64,000 bases of DNA, taken from assembly GCF_022201045.2 (NCBI RefSeq), contig NC_068559.1:28527501-28591500 (forward strand). The letters are read 5' to 3'. Numbering within the stretch: position 1 is the first letter of the stretch; every line of letters begins with the position of its first letter. Shown here in pieces: positions 3,893-50,770 of this stretch. Under the pieces are notes generated by a model. It did no database searches, was not told where the DNA came from, and saw nothing but the letters and a program-made list of their open reading frames with translations. The position numbers and the translations under genes are program-made. This DNA comes from Citrus sinensis. Lineage: Eukaryota > Streptophyta > Magnoliopsida > Sapindales > Rutaceae.

Positions 3893-6800
3893 TCAACCTT
3901 CAGGAGCATCACTAGCTTTAACAAATCGACCTTTCACTCTCTTCCTAGTATCAGCTCTTGCCTTCCTTGACTCATACCGTATGTGCTTGTCATATCTATC
4001 CATGAGATGCATGTATTAGAACTTCAGAAATCACACAATCTGATAAACATATAGCCAGATGGCAACAAAAATGACGAATGTGAATATACCTTCGGGTTTT
4101 CTTCTTCTCCTTGTAACGCTGCATGGCATTCCCTCGATTTTGTGCTAGCAGCTCCAGATTGGCCTTGGCTGCTGCAGTTGTTCTCACAAGAAAAGGCTGT
4201 TCAAACTGGATATTTTTAGAGCTACTAGAGCCTTTGGGCTTTCCAAAAGCTGAACCTGATGATGGCCTTGCTATCGGTAGGTTGTTGCTCTCAGATGTTG
4301 CAGACCCCTGATTGGCTGTTGGGTTATTTGAGTTATTCTGAATTTTCACAATAGGACATATAAGTACTAGATAAAACTCAATGTTATATAAGGCCAAAAC
4401 TTTACCAAAATACTTAAAACAACAGGGGCGAATTAATAGAATTATATGTTACAAAGCAAATCTTATGGTCCATCCACCAAAAATTCAGAGACCTTTTCTC
4501 AACCTTCTACATCTATGCCAATATATGGGGGTAATTAAAAAAAAAAAAACAATCGATGCCTGCCAAAAATATCTACTGTTGACCATCCCTTATACATGCA
4601 GGAAACAGTTTTGCTGTGTGACAGATTGTTTTATAGGGAGACAGATATGCTCCTTTTTTTTTCATTCTACAGCCATTTTCTAATTGGAAACTCATGAGCC
4701 ATTTTCTATATGTTCACAGAGTTGTTCACAAGAGAGAGGAGCATTGACGAACAATGGGCATTGACAAGGAAAGTTTTATCACTGGAGGTACTAGTTTGTT
4801 ACAACTTAGAGACATCCACCAACTTAAACTACAGAAAATACACACAAGACCTCAAAAATTATCACACAAATCAAAATCCAAGTACTACAAAATATTATAC
4901 GAGAGTACAAATTAATATTCCAAGCACAATATCACATGCAATCAAAATCAAAATAATAAAACAATTAAAATAAAAATGAGCAACTACTGAGAGAACGTAC
5001 ATTAAATGATGCCATGTCATCATGTGTGACGGGACAATTCATCGGGTACATTTCTCCAAAAATTTCAGTATTAGTAAGGGATGTTTCTTTCATCAGTTCA
5101 TTGAAGTTCTTGATCATAAATACTGAATCACTTGCACCATATGCAACTTCTACCTGTTTAAATTCTTCATTGCCCCTCAATCGTCCCAAATTAAAATCCC
5201 ATATCTGTGAGTGAGTAGCAAGAAACCATTATCACAGATAGCACATGAGTCTATTAGTAACATTTATTACATTTAAAACCTCGAAAAACGAGGCAAATTA
5301 ATTAAAAGAGAGAAATCAGTACTAACCACAATATAACTATAAAGAGGAAAATTATCCCCAAAAAAAAAAAGGACACTATGGAAATCGATAAACTAATGTT
5401 TATTACATTAAAAACAAACTAATTAAAAAATGCAATATGCAGAGAAAAGAGCCAACAATACCTAGTTCAAATCCCAAATTGCCAAAACCTTCAACCCCAT
5501 CCTTATAACCCGTAATCGATTTACGTCTGTGACATGAGACAGTCTATGTTAGACCGACTCCAGCATTACACCGCCACAAGTTTTTCTTTGCACTTCGAAT
5601 TTTTTTCTTTTTTCTTTTTCAATGTTCCAAACTTTTTCGTCACAAGTTTCTTGTTGTAGCACATGTGACAGAAAAGTTGGTAATATATAGAAAAGCTTGT
5701 AAGTTCAAAAAAACTTGTAACTGTGTAATGCTTGAGCTGTCGCAAGGAAGACACGGCTCAGTGTTATTACTAGAAAGATAAGGGAGTAATGCTGAAATGA
5801 CATGAAAATGTTAAACAGTCATGGTTTCACAGGTCAATTTATCAAATTGAAAAAAGAGGAACATTCCTTGGCACCATCAGATTGAAATCCAGAAAGCCAT
5901 TCTAGAGAAGAAAACTCAGCCCACCTCAAGGATTATCTTTTAAGAAAACAGTACAAACACGGAATATCAAAGATAAATGCTTCCTCAAAAGGCATGCTTG
6001 TTATGGAAACAATATTAAACATGAAGTTCATATGCATTCAGATTAGTTGACACGGAAAATCAACAACACGCCATTATTTTAACAAGGAGGAATTAACGAA
6101 AACCAAGACAACTCTGCACACAAGAAAAACAAAACGTTTCTGGTTTTGTACAAGCCAAAAATAGCAAAGGAAACTCAGGATTTCAATTTAAAGTTTGACA
6201 AGCAGCATTGTCACAGATTTAAATGAAAATAACCTATAAATTCAACAGTACTCAAAAACAATACCTGAGCACCCTGACCACAAGAATGTCCATCCCAAAA
6301 CATACCCTCGTCGCCAACACGATCACACTCTTTAGAACCGAATTGTCGCTGCATCATAAGCAGAGACGTGAAAGGCGCTTGTTGCTCAACCCCATTCCCC
6401 AATTCATTCATCCTCGTCGTCGGCACCAAATTCTCGCCGCGGCCGCCAACACTATTATTCATACTAATATTGTTGTCGTTATTACTATCGTTATTGTTAA
6501 TAATTTTATTACCATTTTCATTCACCATCGAGTTTGTCTTTAACAACTCCACCAATTGTTTATGTATCACTTGTTTCAGCTTACCACAACTCGGACTCTG
6601 ACTCTGACCTTGTCTCTTTGACATACAACTCATTAAATCTCCATTAAAAAAGAAACCTTTCTCATTCGGCACCGTTAAATCCTGACTGTTCATAATCCCG
6701 TTGGCTTTATACATCCACAAGGATTCGAAATCTTGACTCCCGTTCCAGTACTCACCAAAGGACGCCGTTTCGTTCAGTTTCTTACCCTGAAGATCGAAAT

Positions 6801-7155
6801 TCCACATGGACGCCAGCTCGAGAGCCGATGGACAACCGGAGAAGCCTTCGATTGGGACGCGATCGTGCGCGGCAGACACAGAGCAGCTACCGTGCGCGTC
6901 CCAATCGCACTCTTGACAGAGCACCAAATTGTCAGTGGCGCACCGGAACGTCACTGGTTCGCTGCGGCAGTTATCGCAGATCTGTGACCGGATGTGTTTC
7001 TTTGAAAGTAGGTTCGCCGAGTGCACGTGGTGGTCGCAGAACAAACAGAGCTTCGCTGAGTCAGCTCTACAGTAAAGAACCGCTATTTGGTCACTGCAGA
7101 AATCGCACGGCACGCTTTCTTTGTTCCTGTCGGATTGCGGACTCACCATGTCCAT
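3893..7155 (-). CDS. COL14: CONSTANS-like zinc finger protein, COL14/COL15 type (two B-boxes plus CCT)
   Basis: Four exons (6265-7155, 5001-5204, 4090-4337, 3893-3995) join in phase to 481 residues. B-box 1 covers about residues 18-56 ([22 protein letters not shown]). B-box 2 covers about 61-100 ([22 protein letters not shown]). Both keep the Cys/His zinc ligands. The C terminus has a CCT domain ([20 protein letters not shown], then [14 protein letters not shown]) split by the last intron after KKKTRR. The long first exon and the phrase [16 protein letters not shown] are typical of the COL9-COL15 clade. Family members are nuclear regulators; the CCT contacts DNA or NF-Y subunits and the B-boxes bind partners, often in light, flowering or growth control. 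The ATG at 7153-7155 is the first in frame. Intron 1 (1,060 bases) carries a MITE-like insertion. The choice of COL14 over COL15 is uncertain. Confidence 0.93.
5551..5745. mobile_element. Degenerate MITE in intron 1 of the COL gene
   Basis: The left arm AGCATTACACCGCCACAAG (about 5561-5581) pairs imperfectly with the right arm CTTGTAACTGTGTAATGCT (about 5715-5733). The flanks GACCGACTCC and GAGCTGTC extend the inverted match. The length is about 190 bases with no coding capacity. No clear target duplication was found, so the superfamily is not assigned. Confidence 0.45.
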
Positions 7156-8007
7156 TTTCAAGCAAAATATTCAATAAAGTTTCTTTTTTATTTTGTGTTT
7201 TTGTTTTCAAAACCCTAACTGATCGCAAGGGGAGGAAGATAAGAGAGTGTGTTTTGGTAATTTTCTTCAATTTCTGGAAACAAGGAGAAGAAACATTTTT
7301 GACCTTTTGGGGATTAATGTTATTTCTGTTTTTGTAGAAACCGAGGCTGGCTGATGAGCAAAGATGGTGGGTTAACTTGCTCGCTAGTGAATTGAGTGAT
7401 GACCGATGATGGGATCTGTTAGTAAGACGTGGAGCCCAGTTAAGAAAATATCTTTTCACTTTTTGCTGATCTGGCACCTAAATTCAAGGCATTTCCTTAC
7501 GCACCCAATCAAACAATTAAGATTTGCTAGTATGTTTCCTTTAGTAACGTGGAAAATTTGATTATCGAATCTCGAGCGTTGGATGAGTTGAGGATTGGGG
7601 ATCGGCGGATAGGTGTGATTAAGGCGTAGGCGTAGTGGATTTATGGTGGGCGGTGGTTGTCGGAATGAATAGTTGAATTGGAGAAGTAAAAGAGGAGATC
7701 AAAGGCACATGATTTATTGTGTGGGCCAAGACGAGAATGGAATGGCTTTTTGATACTTTTAGGAAGAGCAAAAGCATAACAGGTTAAGATTTAACAGGAT
7801 TTTAATAACAAAGGCTAATCCCTAATGAGGGAGCCCAACCGCTGATATTGTTAAAATAATTAACAATATCTCTATCCCTAAGGATAAATGATTCTCGTGA
7901 CTTCAATGGAAGCATGTCGCTAATATGATATTCTAATTACTCTATTCCACAAAAAAAAAAAAAAAAAAAGGCGATCTTGATGTAGCAGTAGTACATATAT
8001 GTTATAT
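7156..8007. other. 5' flank and promoter region of the COL gene
   Basis: This is non-coding sequence upstream of the minus-strand COL gene. It includes the probable 5' untranslated region (about 7156-7330). Beyond 7500 it is ordinary spacer with an A run at about 7951-7969. I did not find a convincing TATA box. Confidence 0.4.
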
Positions 8008-12290: not shown

Positions 12291-12738
12291 GTTGATCTAA
12301 TGAAAGGATTAGTCTCTCAAGCCCCGTTCATGATTCATCTCGTACGTCACATGCGCTTAATAGTCAATATGCACACAATTCGATTGAAAAACTTTTACAG
12401 AAGGGTTAACACTTTTATTTGGAGCAAATATTTTGCATGCGGAAAAGATAGATACAAATCAAACGGCACAAAATCCTTCCGACTTCAGAATTCGGCAAGA
12501 GTCAAAATTCGGAGCAATAGAAGAGTGAAACTTCAGCCATACTTTAGTACTTTTCATGAGTTTGAAATTCGATTATGTTTTGGACCATCAAGGAACATGA
12601 GGGGTGGTGGGCGTACGTCTGCCCACTAAAATTCCGATATATTCTGCCTGGGAGTGGGTTATCATGCAAATTAATTGTTATGATAAAGATCATAACACTA
12701 ATACAATTACGTGAATGTAACATTGAGCAATCGTCGGC
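12291..12738. other. Spacer upstream of the MIR169 locus
   Basis: No gene is seen. It would contain the distal promoter of the MIR169 transcript. Confidence 0.35.
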
Positions 12739-12748
12739 CATAAATAGA
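12739..12748 (+). promoter_or_regulatory. TATA-like box of MIR169
   Basis: CATAAATAGAGG lies about 115 bases before the mature miRNA sequence. That spacing would give a short 5' leader before the hairpin. It is inferred from position and match to the plant TATAAATA consensus. Confidence 0.45.
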
Positions 12749-12844
12749 GGCTTCATGATTCATCAAAACACGCCATTTCATCAGCATCGGATTTGATGAT
12801 TTATCTATGTGTTAGAATTCAGGAGGAAGAGGTTCCCAGGTGAA

Positions 12845-13070
12845 GGTAAAGGTTCTCGTTTTGTAGCCAAGGATGACTTGCCTGGAGCCCCTCAACGGTA
12901 TTCTTACTTATTTATCATTTCTCAAAATATACGAGTTAATTAACATAAAATCAGATCACGAAGTAGAGTAGTGCTTACATTCTACTTCAAGAAAATGAAA
13001 GGACTGTAGTATCTTTGAGTGGTTTGCAGGCCATCTCCTTGGCTAGCAAGATGGCTCTTATCTCTCACGC
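12845..13070 (+). ncRNA. MIR169: MIR169 precursor
   Basis: The 5' arm at 12864-12884 is 21 nt, beginning TAGCCAAGGATGACTTGC and ending CTG, which is the miR169h-n type mature sequence. The 3' arm near 13027-13047 reads CAGGCCATCTCCTTGGCTAG and pairs with it almost throughout: TAGCCAAGGA against TCCTTGGCTA, and CCTG against CAGG, with a small internal loop at the middle. Pairing continues inward (GAGCCCCTCAACGGTA against TATCTTTGAGTGGTTT), so the star strand is about 13029-13047. The loop of about 140 nt is long but normal for plant MIR169. miR169 directs cleavage of NF-YA transcription factor mRNAs and responds to drought, nitrogen and cold in many species. It lies between COL14 and GILP on the opposite strand and has its own TATA-like box. 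No second miR169 core was noticed in the window. Confidence 0.92.
12864..12884 (+). ncRNA. miR169: Mature miR169 (5' arm)
   Basis: 21 nt starting with T, as preferred by AGO1. By recall it matches the Arabidopsis miR169h-n form base for base. The target class is NF-YA mRNAs, usually in the 3' untranslated region. Confidence 0.9.
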
Positions 13071-13827
13071 TGGACCGAACCTTCTTCTCAATGGCAGCAT
13101 TACTTGCTTGAGTAGATAATGAACTTTCAAAGACACAAGTAGAGGGACATATTAACTAAGTTCACATGCTGTACTGTCCATCTATCTTTTCATCAGTAAT
13201 TAAAACATAGTTGTAACCCTACACAGCAAACAGCCAACAGGAAAAAATTTGAGGGAGGTCCGCCTACTTGTTAGAAATTTATGCAAAAGATCAAATGCTT
13301 TCTTTACAAACTCTGAAAACATTTATAAGCATTTTTGAGTCATGGCATCAAGTGATTGATATATTGTATCGCATTCATGCAAATGTGGCTTTCATGACAA
13401 ACTGCAATCAAGTGCCGCAGTTAGCATTTTTTATTACCTTCCTGTACAGGGTTGAGATTACGATGAAAACTATCATTAAACACATTATAAAGAGAAATTC
13501 TTGCAGCACCAGTCTATGACCAGGGGTTTTGGCCATTCTCACCCATGCAAACCTTGCAACCCCAAATAGGCATTACTAAGGAACATGCAAAACATTCCAA
13601 AAGAGGATTCTAAGTAAATCTGAGAAGCATAAACTTTATGATACATAAATATATAGAAAAATAACATTGTTTATACACTATTGTAAAGTTTATTCATCAA
13701 CAGCTTTGTTTACAACTCCATCTATAGACAAGATGCAACTGAAAGAGTATCTGATAATATAGGAGAGCTCATACAATCTAGAGGAAAAAGCATAGACATG
13801 ATACAATTTAATAGGCCTTACACAACA
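13071..13827. other. Downstream of MIR169; 3' flank of GILP
   Basis: No gene is seen. The last 150 bases probably hold the 3' untranslated region of the minus-strand GILP gene. The short plus-strand frame at 13268-13519 shows nothing recognisable. Confidence 0.4.
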
Positions 13828-15044
13828 CTAAGCAGGCAATGCGAAGCTCAACTGCGTCCAGTGTGGAGGATCCATCACAGCGCAGATGTCTCTTTTCTCA
13901 AAATTGGCAACCTGAACCAAGAGCCAAAGCCAGAGTAAATCACAATCTTTGAAATGAAAACACACCATGAGTGACTAGGACAAAACTACAGAAGAGAATA
14001 TGACTGAAACAATTGCTTACCTTTTCATTGCATGAAGGGCAGTAGTGATACTTATGCCAAAGGCAGTCCATTGAAGGGCAAAGAAAGCATATGCCAAGAA
14101 AGAATGGCATCATACAACCAACAACAGCTGCCGAACTTGGCTTTGATCTGGGTTTCGCATTGAAATAAAGACCCGATAAGGGGGAAAAAAAAGAGTAAAA
14201 TAACTGAGTAACTGACTAATAATTTGAAACAAGAAATTAAGTGTAATGCATAGAAAAAAGTGTAGAATTCATAGATGAATGGCAATTCTTCTAAATTTCT
14301 AATTACTCAAATCTGTGTTTAAGGAAACAGAACTTCAAGAAAAATATGTAAATGATTGAATTGAAGGAATGTAGCTTGTTAGCAATAATTAATCAACAAA
14401 AACAAAAACATTGAGTTTGAGCTCCCTTTTGCTTTCTGTTAATCAGAGCATCAGTAAGCCAATTACAGATTCAGAGTTCGTGCAGCTCTATAAGCATGGG
14501 AAAGGGGCGACCAAACAAGTTGAAAAACTTCCAAATTAACACAAATTCTAACGGTAATGTTAATTAGACTTAAGCTTTCTTCCATTTTACCACCCAAAAA
14601 TAATCAGGCTTCAGGGTTTTCACAGATTTTGCTTCTTCTTGATTATGTATTTTAATATTTTTCATATAGCTTCAAACTATGGAATGACAAAAATGGTCTC
14701 CTTTTCGCCATTTAAGAACTGTATTCAACGCGACGGCAACAACTAATTCAATTCATTGAAAAATATTTCAATTACTGCTCACTTATTATAATCAGCAAGG
14801 TCACGCAAGATACGAGACAAAAACAAAAACCCTGGAAATGTAACCAATACCTGACTTGGGTAACGCCGGAATTGCCACAGTAAACGCAGCTGAAGGGAGC
14901 GGGAGTATCCCGATAAATCGTTTGTTGAATCGGAATTCCCATGGGATCGCCGAGTATGGCGTTTGGCGGGATCTCTCCCTTTTGGTACGGATTCTGTCCC
15001 ACGTAGAACGGAACTCCGACCACCGGTTCGTCGTTTTTCGCCAT
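13828..15044 (-). CDS. GILP: GILP-type LITAF-domain membrane protein
   Basis: Three exons (14851-15044, 14021-14147, 13828-13911) give 134 residues, the usual size of plant LITAF-domain proteins. The N terminus has the GILP signature GVPFYVGQNPYQ and GDPMGIPIQQTIYRDTPAPF. The LITAF domain follows: a first knuckle CVYCGNSG, a hydrophobic membrane-anchoring centre (AAVVGCMMPFFLGICFLCPS), then a second knuckle HYCPSCNEKVANFEK with the two zinc-ligand cysteines. The C terminus is DPPHWTQLSFALPA. In Arabidopsis, GILP is a plasma-membrane protein that binds LSD1 and restrains hypersensitive cell death. All splice sites are GT-AG and phases agree. The start is the only upstream in-frame ATG. Confidence 0.95.
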
Positions 15045-15186
15045 TTCTCAAAACTGTTTCGGAATCCGATACGGAGGCCGAGATCGATCAAAATTTTGAC
15101 GTGCAACTTTTATTCTTTAATTTGTTGTTGTTCGGATTTGAATTTTTATTACAAAAGCAACCTGTGATGAGCTGGTCTGCTCCGGC

Positions 15187-20031: not shown

Positions 20032-21092
20032 ATGACAGCACCGAACATGTCGACAATCACAGAATCCTTAGAGAGGTCGCTCCGGAATTGTTCGCTGAAT
20101 AATCATCAAAGAAGAAGCGGCGTTAATGGAGGCCGAGGCATAGGAAGATCATCAAGCTCAGATGATCATATTAACAACAACGATGATCTCCAAAACGGCG
20201 ACGCCACTTTAGAGCTCAATTCACATATGTCGCTTCCTTATCATTGGGAGCAATGTCTCGATTTAAAGGTTAGCCCTTTTTTTTTTTTTCTTTCTTTTCT
20301 TGAGTTACAAAATACAGTTCCTTTCGTTTTACAGAAGCAATAAATGAGGAGCCATAGCAGATCTTGTGCTTTCTTTGTTGCTTCCTGAAAGTGGAATATG
20401 GTCTTATTGATTCTTTATTGCCTTTTGTATATTCGCTCTGCCGCGTAATTATTATAGTTAAGGTATTTGCCGGTCTCTCTTTCTCCAACACATACACTCA
20501 ATATTATTAGATCAATATTAGGGTTAATCACCAAAACCCTAAAAAGAGCAGACCTTTTTTTTTTACCCCTTTTGAAGGAAAATTTATTGATGTAGGCCAA
20601 TTTGATTTTGATTAGGAGCTTTTTTTTTTTATTTAAATTTATTTTTAAATTTGATATTGTGGTGTTTGTTTGTTTGTTTTTTCCGCTTTCGTTCTGCCGA
20701 CGCTGACTGCGTGTGTTAATTTTTGATGTGTGGGTGTGTGTTGGCAGACGGGAGAGATTTATTACATAAACTGGAGGAATGGGATGAAAGCAAAGGAGGA
20801 TCCGAGAACAACGGCAGAGTCAAGTGGAGATTTCTATTACTCAGAAGAAGAAGATGAAGATGAAGATAGCTCGTATGATAGTGAAGAGTCAACATCAGAA
20901 TCATCTCCAGCTCCATCATCAAAAGAACATTATCATCGATCAGTGAAGGACAACAATAACAATAACGTTTTGGTGGTGGCTGGTTGCAAGAGCTGTCTCA
21001 TGTACTTCATGGTGCCTAAGCAAGTCGAAGATTGCCCCAAATGTAATGGCCAACTTCTTCATTTTGATCGATCTGAAAATGAATCTCCTTGA
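20032..21092 (+). CDS. CFL1: WW-domain protein, CURLY FLAG LEAF 1 type
   Basis: Two exons (20032-20268 and 20748-21092) join in phase to 193 residues. The WW domain (LPYHWEQCLDLK, then TGEIYYINWRNGMKAKEDPR) is split by the intron exactly between LDLK and TGEI. It keeps the first W and a second aromatic/W region. An acidic serine-rich stretch (EEEDEDEDSSYDSEEST) follows. A C-terminal zinc-ribbon-like module has CKSC and CPKC pairs (GCKSCLMYFMVPKQ, DCPKCNGQLLHFD). This is the layout of rice CFL1 and Arabidopsis AtCFL1/AtCFL2; AtCFL1 binds the HD-ZIP IV factor HDG1 and represses cuticle development. The ATG at 20032 is used; a second at 20047 (MSTITESLERSL) would also give a normal family N terminus. 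Confidence 0.9.
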
Positions 21093-26110: not shown

Positions 26111-27163
26111 CTACTGGTCGCCCACTCGCCCTGCACTTCCAGTTGCTCTGTATTCTGACAAACTGTTCAACAAGTGGTTCGTTGCTTTCTCGAAATTGAC
26201 AAAGCCCATGAACCAAAATTCATGTCCCTCCACAGTTACAATCTTCATGTACTTGTCTGATGCATTTTCTTTTAATGTCACTGGATTGACTGAGCTTATA
26301 TTCGCCAAAGGTATCATAACCTGTTCAAGATAAGTTGTTCAGATCATTAAATTACCAATGCAATGCTATATTTTGATACAGTTTATTGAGTGTATTGTTA
26401 TATTGATGATCATCTTATTCGTACCTTGTAGTAGCTCCAAGCTTCCTGCCCAGATGGAGCAGTAAAACACAAGGGACGATCACTGCAAAAAGCCACACGG
26501 GCCGTTGATAAATAGAGTGTTCCAGCAACAGGACCAGTTGTTGTAGAAAGATAACACGCAAAGGTCTTCTTTAGCTTCTCATTCGGATCAGTTGCAAAAA
26601 TCTGCTTGAAGAGAGACTCAAATCCGCCCTCTGTTATTGCTTTCGCTGTCAAATTCACCTTCCCCCATGCAGCTTCCGACACAGAGGGACCGGTTTTCAC
26701 TGCAAATTTATATTATCAATATGGATGTATTGGTCGAATCATATGTATATTACAGCTGCATAGCGTTTAATATGTATCAATATGGATGTATTGGTCGAAT
26801 CATATATATATTACAGCTGCATAGCGTTTGATATATAATTAGCGGACAGGAAAGTAACTTACGATTATGCCAGATGTTGCGGGCAATGGTCTCAGCTTTG
26901 GTGCTCCAAGTATTGAACGCGTGAATTACAGGCTCCAAAGGGTTGTTACTTGGCTTGTCGATAGGAGAGTACTCGACATAAGACTGATGATAGATTTGCT
27001 GGCGGTTTTCGGCGTTCCATGAGGCTGCCTTTTGATTGTCTGGGTGAGCACTAGGCACCGCTGGCGCTCCCATGATATGGGTACCCCATTTCTTTCTTTC
27101 TTCTTCTTCTGAAGGTGGAGCTTCTGTCAGAGTGCTTGACAATTTTTCTGGTGTGCTTGTCAT
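26111..27163 (-). CDS. GER5: GEM-like GRAM-domain protein (GER5/GEM-like 5 type)
   Basis: Three exons (26863-27163, 26425-26699, 26111-26320) join in phase to 261 residues, the usual GEM-like size. A variable proline/serine-rich N terminus contains KKWGTHIMGAPAVPSAHPDN, typical of this clade. NPLEPVIHAFNTWSTKAETI follows, then the GRAM domain (GGFESLFKQIF, KLKKTFACYLSTTTGPVAGT, LYLSTARVAFCSDRPL, then VMIPLANISSVNP). The end reads HEFWFMGFVNFEKATNHLL. GRAM domains bind phosphoinositides. Arabidopsis GER5 is linked to ABA, reproductive development and seed dormancy. The gene is transcribed away from the CYSTM gene across about 845 bases. Intron 1 is mostly a recent 61-bp tandem duplication. The start is the first in-frame ATG and matches the family (MTSTPEK). 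Confidence 0.93.
26717..26838. repeat. 61-bp tandem duplication in intron 1 of the GEM-like gene
   Basis: Two copies starting CAATATGGATGTATTGGTCG at 26717 and 26778 differ at only a few positions. They make up most of the 163-base intron, so the intron roughly doubled in a recent event. Confidence 0.92.
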
Positions 27164-31394: not shown

Positions 31395-32615
31395 TCAGCG
31401 TACGAAGTGCAGTAAGAAGAATTCAACACAGTACAGCTTCCACGTCAACATATAGAAGGATTTTGCTGATTTATTATCGGAGGGATCATTAGTTTTAGCC
31501 TGACGCCACAAAACGAAAGCCAGTGCGGAGTGGCTTATCATAGTAACAAGTTTGCATAACACGGAAGGCGAAAATGCTCCAACTAGTACAACACCTCCAT
31601 AAGCCATTAACATAATATTAACAGCAACCGAAAATACTTTTTCTTTCCCTATGATGATTGGGAGCGTTCGAAGGCCAAATGCTTTGTCGCCCTCCACATC
31701 AGGTATATCCTTCACAAATGCAATTGCAGTGTTCCAGATCACCAGGTAAGCAGCGGTAAACAACACTGGTTTCGTAAATGCTACAGGATTACCAAGCACA
31801 ATTTTCTGGAAGTGTATGAAGAAAGGAAAAAAAAACTAGAAGTCCATTGCAACAGATGATGGACACTGCAGCCATCAATGGATTTCCCTTCCATCGAAGA
31901 AGGGGAGGAAGATCGATGGAATAAGCGCCTCCAACTATACACCATATGATGAAGCCTATAACTAGTGGTGGAGATCGAAGCATAATCCCCATAGCCATAG
32001 CCATCAATAGAGATGCTATAGTAATTGCTAGTCCCTCTCCCATTGAAAAGTCTCCGCAAGTGAGGGGCAGATCAGGCTTGTTAACCTTGTCGATATGAAC
32101 ATCCGCCAATTGGTTTATGGCATTGGCATAATTGCTCATCATTATTGCGGGCACCATGCACTTGAATGCTTCTATGATAAGCTTGGGAGTGAAATCCGCA
32201 GGACTTTGTAATGGAAGCAAAGAAGCGGATAATATCGCTAAAATATAGCCAGCGCAAGTGTGGGGACGAGTAAGCGGTAGAATGCATCACACTTCTTGGT
32301 CAAAACTTGCATAAAGCTTGTTGAAGGCAGCTATGATTTTGATGAATACCCATCTTGAGCTGCCAGTGCAACTGTTGATTTGGTCAATGGCTTATGGCTT
32401 CTATTGATTACTAAATCCTCGCTGTGTCCTATTTTATTGGTTGAAAAAAATGAACTTTCGGAGGAGCATCTGACGGAGTACTTCTTGCTCTCACTTTTGT
32501 TTGCCAAGCCATTTATGTGTTTCACACGAGTCTGGAATGTTTTAACCGAACCAGCGTGTTGCAAAGGATGGTATTTCAAAGAGAAGCTTGAACACGGATA
32601 AATTTGAAGCAACAT
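31395..32615 (-). pseudogene. Broken, apparently intronless UbiA aromatic prenyltransferase (homogentisate/flavonoid/coumarin type)
   Basis: Starting at the ATG 32613-32615, the minus strand encodes a serine-rich plastid transit-like peptide (MLLQIYPCSSFSLKYHP). A UbiA core follows, with the first aspartate motif NQLADVHIDKVNKPDLPL, SIDLPPLLRWKGNPLMAA, the second motif KDIPDVEGDKAFGLRTLPII, and the family C terminus KLYCVEFFLLHFVR with a stop. Both Mg-prenyl-diphosphate motifs (NQxxDxxxD and KDxxDxxGD) survive. The frame is broken by a TAG after DGYSSKS, a frameshift in FYR/LTRPHT and another in the T run before HFQKIVLG. The coding sequence runs through regions where plant homogentisate-type prenyltransferases normally have many introns, so a processed copy is likely. 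An intact relative would be a plastid membrane enzyme joining prenyl groups to an aromatic acceptor. Confidence 0.85.
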
Positions 32616-33060
32616 GATGATTTGCTTCTTTCTTTCTCTCTTTCTTTTCGCGTCTGTTGTGGAGAGAGATTGCAAAATAGAGTTGCTGAATCAAATAGAG
32701 TTTAATTATAAATAGAGTTGCCAAATCAAATCGAAATGTAATTTAGATTTTTTAATTTGAATTAAATTATGAGGTAACTGGATGATTAATTCAAAGTAGA
32801 TACTTTGACTAATTCAAATTGAAGTAGGTAAGGAATTACAGAGAGTTTTTTCATAAAAAGGAGATAAATAAAACCCTCAAGGTACCACTATTAACCCTCT
32901 TTCTATTTTATATTTTCTTCATCATTTTTTATAAATATATGTCAGTCTCAGTATAAGAATATGCTTCAATGCAATGCAATTCAGTATTTTGAAAGCTGCC
33001 AAACACACCCAAAATACAAATTTAAAAATGAATCATTTAAAAACATCTTTAAACTGTTTG
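32616..33060. other. Spacer upstream of the prenyltransferase pseudogene
   Basis: AT-rich. It contains a loose repeat around AAATAGAGTT(T)/GTTGCCAAATC (32677-32725). No gene seen. Confidence 0.35.
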
Positions 33061-36284: not shown

Positions 36285-36357
36285 GTTGCTGTGGTGTAGT
36301 GGTTATCACGTTAGTCTTACACACTAAAGGTCTCCAGTTCGATCCTGGACAGCAACA
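36285..36357 (+). tRNA. tRNA-Val (anticodon UAC)
   Basis: The 73 bases fold as a cloverleaf. The acceptor stem GTTGCTG/CAGCAAC is a perfect 7 bp, with discriminator A. The D arm is GTGTAGTGGTTATCAC, also the A-box. The anticodon stem TTAGT/ACTAA surrounds loop CTTACAC, giving anticodon TAC (reads GUA, Val). The T arm TCCAGTTCGATCCTGGA is perfect and contains the B-box. A TTTTTT run just downstream (from 36360) can terminate Pol III. No intron. It sits between two hAT-like relics. Confidence 0.95.
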
Positions 36358-46544: not shown

Positions 46545-48271
46545 TTATGACATCTACTGTCTAACACTATTCTTCTCAAACCAAACTCCTGGGAATTATT
46601 TATTTCTTTAAATATGCCCAAACTGAACCAAAACTTTTTCAAGTCGTGTGAGTGTGGACAAAATGCCCATGCCTGCCCAAAACAAATAAACTGAACAAAT
46701 CAAATAATCAATGGTGGGAACTGGGAAGCAAAATAATTGAACTACTTTCCCCACAAAGGGTAAAGGGTGGGTTGGTGGGGATAGTTGTCCAAATTGGACA
46801 TGTGAATTAAGTGATGTTAGGTTTAATTCTTTTCTGGTAGGTTAGGTTAAGTTGCAAAGTGGAAGAGGTTGGGTCTGAGTTTTTCAAAACGTGAACAATG
46901 CTGGCGGCAGATTGTTTTCAAATATATTCTGTAAACCGACTTGATCCTTCTTTGCTTTTATCTTGATACCATCGAAGGTTGCATAAGATCGTTCATTTAC
47001 CTTTTATTTTAGGGTTCACAGATTGCTTACTGTTAAATTGGAGAAGTAAACTAAAGCAAACTCCTCTGTACCGTTGTCGAAAGTTTTCAGAGTTAAGTGA
47101 GAATTACTTGGGCCAACAGCCCAGCTCGGCCCAAATGTTCTAAATGCACCATCTCAGTTCATATCATCACACCCATCCCTTCCCTTCTCATTAATTAATT
47201 CTATTTATTTTCTGAATTACTCCTCTGCGTCATTTCTGTAAATAGGCTCTTATTCAAATTCATCTTCTCAAACCCAAATTTTGAACAAAAATTGAGATTA
47301 TCCTACGATTAGATTTATTGAAAACTTTTTTTTTGTGATTTTTTAGTAGCCCTTATTCGCAAAATGAAATCCGCTTGAATGGTCCTAATATCCTATAACG
47401 TTAAGTTCTATGTAAAGATAAAATTTCCCAGTTCAGATTCAGCAAAGATGGGAGCTATACAAATGGGAGAAATTCTTGTGAATCTATACCCTAGCTAGGC
47501 GGCGCTTCAAAATTAGAATTTCTCAGCCACATCAAAATGTTAGCCAAAACTCAGGATAATTGTGAACGCTTTTTGGTTTCGATTCACTACCAAAATATTA
47601 CATCAGAGAGTTCAAAAATACGAATTAGAATGATAAATGAGGAAATCCACAAACTCTGCTTACAACAACAATTTTTTTTTTTTTTTAAATTTAGAATATG
47701 GTAGGAAAAAGAAAAAACTAAAAAGTGTTCGACGATGGAACTTAGTAATAATAACTCAAAAAGAGATAAGTCCATGACAAGAAAGATGGGCAAGAAAATG
47801 AATTACGGAGCATCAGTTTTAAAAAGCTCGAATTTTAGAAGCATCACGGCTTCATCAGCTATGAATAATGTTTTTGTATCATCATCTGCTCAGATTAAGA
47901 AGCAAAAACAAATTGCAAAACGAAAGGAACCGAAGAAAAAAAACCGGAAAAATGAAGAAAGAAAAAGGAAAAAGGAAAAACCAAACCAAAACAAACCAAT
48001 AAAAATCTCAAAGTAACCCATGCATCAAGGTCAAGAGGGGAGGCAAGCGCCGTGCAGGTGCAGCGGCCGCAGCACTCCTTTTTATAGACCACGACCCCCC
48101 CGAAACCCTAGCTTGCTAAAAGACCCCATCCAACGACGTCGTTCTTCTGTTCCCATCAGTTAAACGCACCGTCTTACTATAGCACTTTAAACGCAGCGTT
48201 TCGGCTCCCTCCCGCAGGCGGCTTGCGCCAACTCAACTCCAGTCAAAACCGAGTCTCAATAATCTCATCAC
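46545..48271. other. Upstream region of the PPR gene
   Basis: Spacer and promoter. The plus-strand open frame at 47735-48016 is lysine-rich low-complexity sequence with no family features. No convincing TATA box was assigned. Confidence 0.4.
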
Positions 48272-50770
48272 ATGATTAGATTGTTCAATTACAAAACATT
48301 TTCATGCAAACAACTTACACGTCAAAGTAAAATCAACGCATGGCTACGTGGGTTATCAGCTCAAGCAGCTTTATCGACTCAACAATGCAGCAATTCTACA
48401 ACCACACCGATAACATTCTCAGTCTCGGAGTTCAATTCTCATTCCTACGCCACGTCACTTCAAAGCTGTATCCAAAACGACGACCTCCAAACGGCAATGA
48501 CAATTCATTGTCAAGTCCTGAAGAAGGGTAACTGCTTAGATCTATTCGCAACTAACGTGCTTCTTAATGTTTACGTGAAGTTAAACCGGTTACCTGATGC
48601 AACTAAACTGTTCGATGAAATGCCCGAGAGAAATACCATATCGTTTGTTACTACAATTCAGGGTTACACTGTGTCGTCTCAATTTGTTGAGGCTGTTGGG
48701 TTGTTTTCTACACTTCATAGGGAAGGTCATGAGCTTAATCCTTTTGCGTTTACTGCTTTTTTGAAAGTGCTTGTCAGTATGGGGTGGGCAGAGCTTTGCC
48801 CTTGTGTTTTTGCGTGTGTATATAAGCTTGGTCATGACAGTAATGCTTTTGTTGGGACGGCGCTGATCGATGCGTTCTCTGTTTGTGGTTGTGTCGAATT
48901 TGCTAGAAAAGTTTTTGATGGGATTATTTGTAAGGACATGGTTACTTGGACTGGAATGGTTGCTTGCTATGCTGAGAATGATTGTTTTGAGGAAGCATTG
49001 AATTTTTTCTCTCAAATGAGGGCTGTTGGGTTCAAACCGAATAATTTTACCTTTGCTTTTGTGCTTAAAGCTTGTCTTGGATTGGACACCATTCGTGTTG
49101 CTAAGAGTGCTCATGGGTGTGCTTTAAAAACTCGTTATGAAGTGGATCTTTACGTGGCTGTTGCTTTGCTTGATTTGTATACTAAGTCTGGGGAGATTAG
49201 CAACGCTAGGCGTATATTTGAGGAGATGCCTAAAAAGGATGTGATTCCGTGGAGCTTCATGATTGCCAGATATGCTCAGACTGACCTGAGTATAGATGCA
49301 GTAGAGCTGTTCTGTAGGATGAGACAAGCTTTTGTTGCACCTAATCAGTTTACATTTGTTAGTGTTCTGCAAGCTTGTGCAACTATGGAGGGTTTGGATT
49401 TGGGGAAGCAAATCCATTCTCTGGTGGTCAGGGTTGGTCTTCTCTCGGATGTGTTTGTTTCAAATGCACTCATGGATGTCTATGCTAAATGTGGAAGGAT
49501 GGAGAACTCTGTGGAATTATTTGCCGAATCACCAAAGAGAAATCACGTGACTTGGAACACAATGATTGTTGGCTATGTGCAATTAGGGGAGGTGGGGAAG
49601 GCAATGATTATGTTCTCAAAAATGCTTGAGGAGCAAGTTCCAGCAACTGAAGTGACGTACTCTAGTGTTCTTCGCGCTTGTGCAAGTTTAGCAGCCTTGG
49701 AGCCAGGAATGCAGGTTCATTGCTTGACTGTCAAAGCAAATTATGACATGGATGTCGTGGTCGCTAATGCTTTGATAGATATGTATGCAAAGTGTGGAAG
49801 CATCACTGATGCACGTTTGGTTTTTGACATGATGAATGACTGGAATGAAGTTTCGTGGAATGCTATGATCTCAGGATACTCCATGCATGGTCTAAGTGCA
49901 GAGGTCTTAAAGGTTTTTGACCTGATGCAGCAAAGAGGGTGGAGACCTAACAATTTGACTTTTGTTGGCGTTCTATCAGCATGTAGTAATGGAGGACTCC
50001 TTGAGCAGGGTGAAGCTTATTTTAAATCTATGGTAGCGGACTATGGTATTGAACCATGTATAGAGCATTACACTAGTATGGTCTCACTTCTTGGCAGAGC
50101 AGGCCATCTTGATAAGGCCGCTAAGTTGATTGAGGGAATCCCGTTTCAGCCAAGTGTCATGATCTGGCGTGCCTTACTTGGTGCTTGCATAATTCATAAT
50201 AATGTTGAGATTGGAAGACTTTCCGCCCAACACATTTTAGATTTTGAACCCGAAGATGAGGCAACCCATGTGTTACTTTCAAACATATATGCCATGGCAA
50301 GGAGTTGGGAAAAAGCTGCTTCTGTTAGAAAAAGCATGAAAAAAAAAGGAGTGAAGAAGGAACCAGGGCTAAGTTGGATTGAGAACCAGGGTATGGTTCA
50401 TTATTTCAGAGCAGGGGACACCTCACATGCAGACATGAACATCATTAGAGGGATGTTGGAGTGGTTGAACATGAAATCCAGGAAGGCAGGTTATATTCCT
50501 GATCTTAGTGCTGTATTGCGAGATGTGAGGGAAGATGAAAAGGAACGATACTTGTGGGTGCACAGTGAAAAATTAGCTCTAGCTTTTGCACTATTTAAAA
50601 TGCCCCCTAGTAGCCCTATTCGTATCATTAAAAATCTCCGAATATGTGTGGATTGTCATACTGCAATAAAGATAATATCGAAGATAGTACAGCGAGAAAT
50701 TATCATCAGAGATGTCCACCGGTTCCATCACTTTCAGGACGGATGCTGCTCTTGTGGCGATTTCTGGTGA
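48272..50770 (+). CDS. Pentatricopeptide repeat protein, PLS class with DYW domain (At5g13230 type)
   Basis: A single uninterrupted frame of 832 residues, as most PPR genes are intronless. The N terminus is basic and suits organelle targeting ([20 protein letters not shown]). From about residue 50 to 640 it carries P, L and S type repeats, recognisable by phrases such as [40 protein letters not shown] and [13 protein letters not shown] and E+ motifs follow ([26 protein letters not shown]). The DYW domain has the deaminase HSE at about residue 764 and CVDCHT, then CCSCGDFW at the end, so the last tripeptide is DFW instead of DYW. DYW proteins edit C to U in mitochondrial or plastid RNAs. JAZ10 lies upstream on the same strand, as in Arabidopsis (At5g13220-At5g13230). 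The first ATG is used. Confidence 0.95.

Follow-up and report, generated by a model that had tools for sequence, protein, structure and literature searches.

A probable plus-strand MIR169 gene beside a CONSTANS-like gene in Citrus sinensis, with a minus-strand Rfam call on the same hairpin

A miR169 hairpin between a CONSTANS-like and a GILP-like gene

We analyzed a 64,000-nucleotide stretch of Citrus sinensis DNA (the window; C4:28527501-28591500) against its own genome, 299.7 Mb in 11 contigs. The locus under study is a predicted MIR169 hairpin on the plus strand, with a CONSTANS-like (COL) gene to its left and a LITAF-domain gene to its right. The COL gene lies on the minus strand, divergent from the MIR169, and comprises a first-exon open reading frame (ORF) with two B-boxes (6211..7170; PF00643, 44.3 bits, in two stretches) and an ORF whose CCT stretch was recognized by eye, had no Pfam match and was aligned to a C2 paralog (3996..4448, minus strand). 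The first-pass annotation called this gene COL14, a name that we take to fit. The right-hand gene, also on the minus strand, is GILP-like, with a LITAF-like zinc ribbon exon in the ORF at 13940..14215 (PF10601, 26.9 bits, cut-off 23.8) and a presumed first exon in the ORF at 14772..15047, which had no Pfam match and by eye presumably resembles the GILP first exon. A genome-wide PF10601 search gave no matches here or in the control genomes, missing even the window's own exon, and is therefore uninformative on a GILP paralog.

Elsewhere in the window we observe a tRNA-Val with anticodon TAC (36285-36357, plus strand) and a SNORD36-type C/D box snoRNA (47807-47891, minus strand; 50.5 bits, above cut-off). 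Other window genes are represented by ORFs at 20727-21092 (+), 26410-26712 (-), 48263-50770 (+) and 31395-32690 (-), among which Pfam identifies a GIR1-like zinc ribbon ORF and a GRAM-domain ORF, with an 835-amino-acid pentatricopeptide-repeat-like ORF and UbiA-type prenyltransferase-like ORFs recognized by eye.

The 21-mer TAGCCAAGGATGACTTGCCTG occurs on the plus strand at 12864..12884 without mismatch, as the only match in the window at up to three mismatches, and none of 100 shuffled sequences contained any such match. It is listed as osa-miR169h-m in a table of PMC2292181 and as Arabidopsis miR169i/j/l/m/n in a table of PMC2945783, so that the miR169h-n mature form proposed for these bases by the first-pass annotation is borne out by an exact match and, in the tables cited, by identity with the rice and Arabidopsis forms. 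A scan of viral contigs for the same 21-mer returned no matches. No stop-to-stop ORF of 60 amino acids or more covers the 21-mer, in agreement with the earlier remark that no open frame marks the gene.

The predicted mature miR169 and its star face each other in a stable foldback, the mature in the 5' arm and the star in the 3' arm. The predicted primary transcript folds over 12818..13094 (plus strand) with a free energy of -94.9 kcal/mol (z = -5.31), and the shorter stretch 12845-13070, for which the first-pass annotation had claimed a long hairpin, reaches -67.1 kcal/mol (z = -3.72); in both cases, 0 of 200 shuffled sequences were as stable. The star arm, earlier put at about 13029-13047, is placed by the pairing in the minimum-free-energy folds at 13029..13048 with a 2-nt overhang. 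An inverted-repeat finder run over 12600-13400 detected no arms, probably because they are gapped. In a control with 3955 random stretches of the window set to the same geometry, 93 paired 17 or more of 21 bases and 28 folded as stably. A hairpin by itself is therefore no rarity in so AT-rich a window, and it is the exact mature sequence that carries the MIR169 claim.

The predicted duplex leaves mature positions 11 and 14-16 without a partner, as well as three star bases, one of them bulged. The usual duplex rule tolerates up to five mismatched positions, of which three may be in asymmetric bulges, and the window duplex is just at the limit of this rule. The star reads GGCCATCTCC... at the window locus and GGCAGTCTCC... 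in five copies on C2; these five share the star core GGCAGTCTCCTTGGCTA, two bases of which differ at the window locus, so that two pairs are lost. The window's star sequence is unique among the MIR169 loci compared. Published work reports the core GGCAGTCTCCTTGGCTA as sequenced in Arabidopsis, trifoliate orange, date palm and sweet orange, and six of the seven star-arm strings given for miR169-like loci in PMC3429500 (two of them nested) occur exactly in MIR169 loci of this genome, with Novel03 absent. For sweet orange, PMC4158063 maps csi-miR169c together with csi-miR169i to chromosome 2 and records the family in leaf and flower and not in fruit.

The two lost star pairs, together with a loop of 142 nt that is the longest of the 41 MIR169 copies folded in this genome, would be expected of a decaying copy, in which the mature sequence survives and the precursor is processed poorly. 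We consider such decay improbable, since the mature sequence is retained at 21 of 21 positions although a DNA-level genome search with the 501 bases around it recovered only the locus itself, and since the foldback has a long lower stem and is preceded by a TATA-like box at the distance typical of the family. The locus differs from the RF00645 MIR169_2 (miR169h-n) type in its longer loop, its altered star and a score below the gathering threshold, whereas it shares with that type the exact 21-mer in the 5' arm, the star in the 3' arm and the presence of NF-YA sites in the same genome.

Strand of the hairpin

The only Rfam MIR169 call above cut-off at the locus is on the minus strand, where RF00865 (MIR169_5) matches the mirror hairpin at 12844..13064 (50.4 bits, cut-off 44). 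On the sense strand, RF00645 matches at 12853..13058 (44.9 bits, E = 4.1e-11), below its gathering score of 50, a cut-off that is a library threshold and not a defining property of the MIR169 family. Genome-wide, RF00865 has at least 30 matches, a lower bound in that 44 of 10377 candidates were scored; the window locus is absent from this list, yet passes in the window's own Rfam scan. Among the 30 matches listed, the miR169 arm (at most three mismatches) is on the strand opposite to the RF00865 match in 25; of the other five, two have it on the same strand, two on both strands and one on neither. Judged by these matches, RF00865 in this genome therefore reports for the most part the strand antisense to the miR169 hairpin, and its call does not fix the strand at the window locus. 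A pipeline trusting the RF00865 strand would misplace such genes, along with their star and their targets.

Fold stability provides a second view of the strand. We found 48 places in the genome within three mismatches of the 21-mer, against one for a reversed control pattern; leaving aside two NF-YA target sites, 46 were examined and 41 gave a 3' arm, two of these (L027 and L030) with doubtful partners. In 33 of the 41 the sense strand gives the more stable fold, and in the other 8 it does not (median, -5.7 kcal/mol; Wilcoxon, p = 1.5e-4, which is optimistic because the copies are related). In this comparison the window locus gives -78.8 kcal/mol for the sense and -64.7 kcal/mol for the antisense fold, with 13 versus 7 G-U pairs.

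A third line concerns the promoter. A box upstream of the hairpin had been taken to suggest an independent Pol II gene, and CATAAATAG at 12739..12747 (plus strand) is indeed a probable TATA box. As a bare word it is no evidence, with three occurrences in the window versus 1.27 expected and 11 of 100 shuffles reaching three, and we retain it only for its position, which is common to other MIR169 copies. Of the 31 MIR169 loci with enough flank, 11 have an exact TATAAATA beginning between 80 and 130 bases upstream of the sense mature, and none has one at that distance from the antisense arm; if a single mismatch is allowed, the counts are 18 and 5. The window locus has CCATAAATAG at -125, which departs from TATAAATA by one mismatch and recurs at C8:23633999.

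The same hairpin might also, or instead, be transcribed from the minus strand, with the mirror hairpin yielding a miR169q-like small RNA, UAGCCAAGGAGAUGGCCUGCA, from its 5' arm (13025..13045, minus strand; located by sequence and fold). Antisense MIR169 transcription is known from elsewhere: Calvino and Messing reportedly described in 2013 an antisense MIR169 pair in sorghum, and two-strand MIR169 loci are already in print. The precedent closest in form is rice MIR169q, for which PMC2292181 gives 28, 11 and 3 miR169q reads in three libraries, and whose reverse complement, according to a passage in PMC3479107, gives a DCL1-dependent sequence identical to miR169h-m. Like rice MIR169q, the window locus has a single hairpin whose two strands differ in their 5' arms, miR169h-like on one and miR169q-like on the other; unlike rice miR169q, its minus arm differs in the 3' half, and its minus product is only putative. 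A string search of main texts with the window arms matched only PMC2292181, with rice miR169q. In a further search of main texts, seven papers contained one of six strings and none contained any of the four from the window, so that the cores of its minus arm and its star were absent from the texts searched. The genome holds no other exact copy of UAGCCAAGGAGAUGGCCUGCA.

Apart from this precedent, a minus-strand product is favored by the RF00865 score and by a minus duplex with fewer mismatches than the plus duplex, and the minus fold itself has a z score of -3.05. Against this, the RF00865 strand carries little weight for the reason given above, the minus fold is weaker than the plus fold by 14-17 kcal/mol, the minus strand has no TATA at the distance usual in the family (the closest word with one mismatch is 281 bases away), and the minus 21-mer has no acceptable ungapped site at any NF-YA locus (penalties 8.0-10.5). 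We therefore regard minus-strand expression as quite unlikely at this locus.

Near-palindromic MIR169 hairpins are present at C4:22787388(+)/22787474(-) (L063) and C8:23617874(+)/23617963(-) (L029, L059), both with a miR169-like 5' arm (at most three mismatches) on each strand. As true two-strand MIR169 loci, these two are more convincing candidates than the window hairpin.

NF-YA sites and the predicted pathway

The miR169 family silences NF-YA transcription-factor genes. A PF02045 profile search of the genome gave 11 matches in six NF-YA loci, the nearest of them about 0.68 Mb from the window MIR169. When ungapped sites were scored, five of the six loci carried a site for the plus 21-mer downstream of the NF-YA domain (penalty 3.0-4.0), presumably in the 3' UTR, with the sixth (C2:27.96 Mb) being without one (penalty 10.0); shuffled 21-mers reached a penalty of 4 or less at these loci in 0 of 600 trials. 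We also set aside a direct effect of the miRNA on the neighboring genes, since the only window site for either strand's 21-mer at a penalty of 6.5 or less is the hairpin itself.

The position of the TATA box, the strand asymmetry of the folds and the NF-YA sites offer independent genome support for a MIR169 gene that is read from the plus strand under a promoter of its own, as the first-pass annotation had suggested. On sequence grounds we consider it highly probable (about 0.88) that the locus is such a gene and an ordinary member of the miR169 family. Pol II would then start some 25-30 bases past the CATAAATAG box, and folding predicts that the transcript forms a foldback whose 5' arm contains the miR169 21-mer. 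By analogy with the rest of the family, DCL1 would release the miR169/miR169* duplex, AGO1 would retain the strand with the 5' U, and the miRNA would cleave NF-YA mRNAs, for which five of the six loci have matching sites. The minus-strand Rfam call would reflect this same hairpin read from the other strand.

Linkage of MIR169 and CONSTANS-like genes

The window MIR169 lies 6.0 kb from the B-box match, within the roughly 10 kb that we used for COL linkage. The genome has 15 B-box genes (17 matches, with two tandem pairs merged), and two of them have a MIR169 place less than 10 kb away, namely the window gene and the gene at C2:8860100, whose distance to the MIR169 copy at C2:8850317 is 9.8 kb. 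The expected number is 0.021, giving a Poisson P of 2e-4 for two or more; because the window pair was known beforehand, the fair figure is that for one further pair, about 0.02. The COL genes of C2 and of the window are paralogs, with 40% identity over 285 aligned positions and, in addition, the CCT exon. In the C2 region (C2:8739159-8860216), a minus-strand tandem cluster of MIR169 copies ends 9.8 kb from the plus-strand COL paralog, in a divergent arrangement as in the window.

This is in line with the linkage of MIR169 segments to genes of the CONSTANS-LIKE and bHLH kinds, as summarized in a passage of PMC5465577 (on Calvino and Messing 2013). As in those segments, a MIR169 here stands beside a CONSTANS-like gene; the arrangements differ in that the window locus has a single copy and the paralogous C2 locus a tandem cluster. 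Linkage of COL and MIR169 genes is thus on record for other flowering plants, and two instances of it are present in this genome.

One reading of the head-to-head layout is that the pair is a kept regulatory module, in which the COL protein (a CCT protein) and miR169 (by lowering NF-YA) would converge on the same NF-YB/YC dimers while the two genes would share control sequences, the layout being kept on both C4 and C2 for that reason. We consider this unlikely, and a regulatory tie between COL and NF-Y is speculation. Two paralogous COL-MIR169 pairs in one genome make the function of this long-noted linkage testable.
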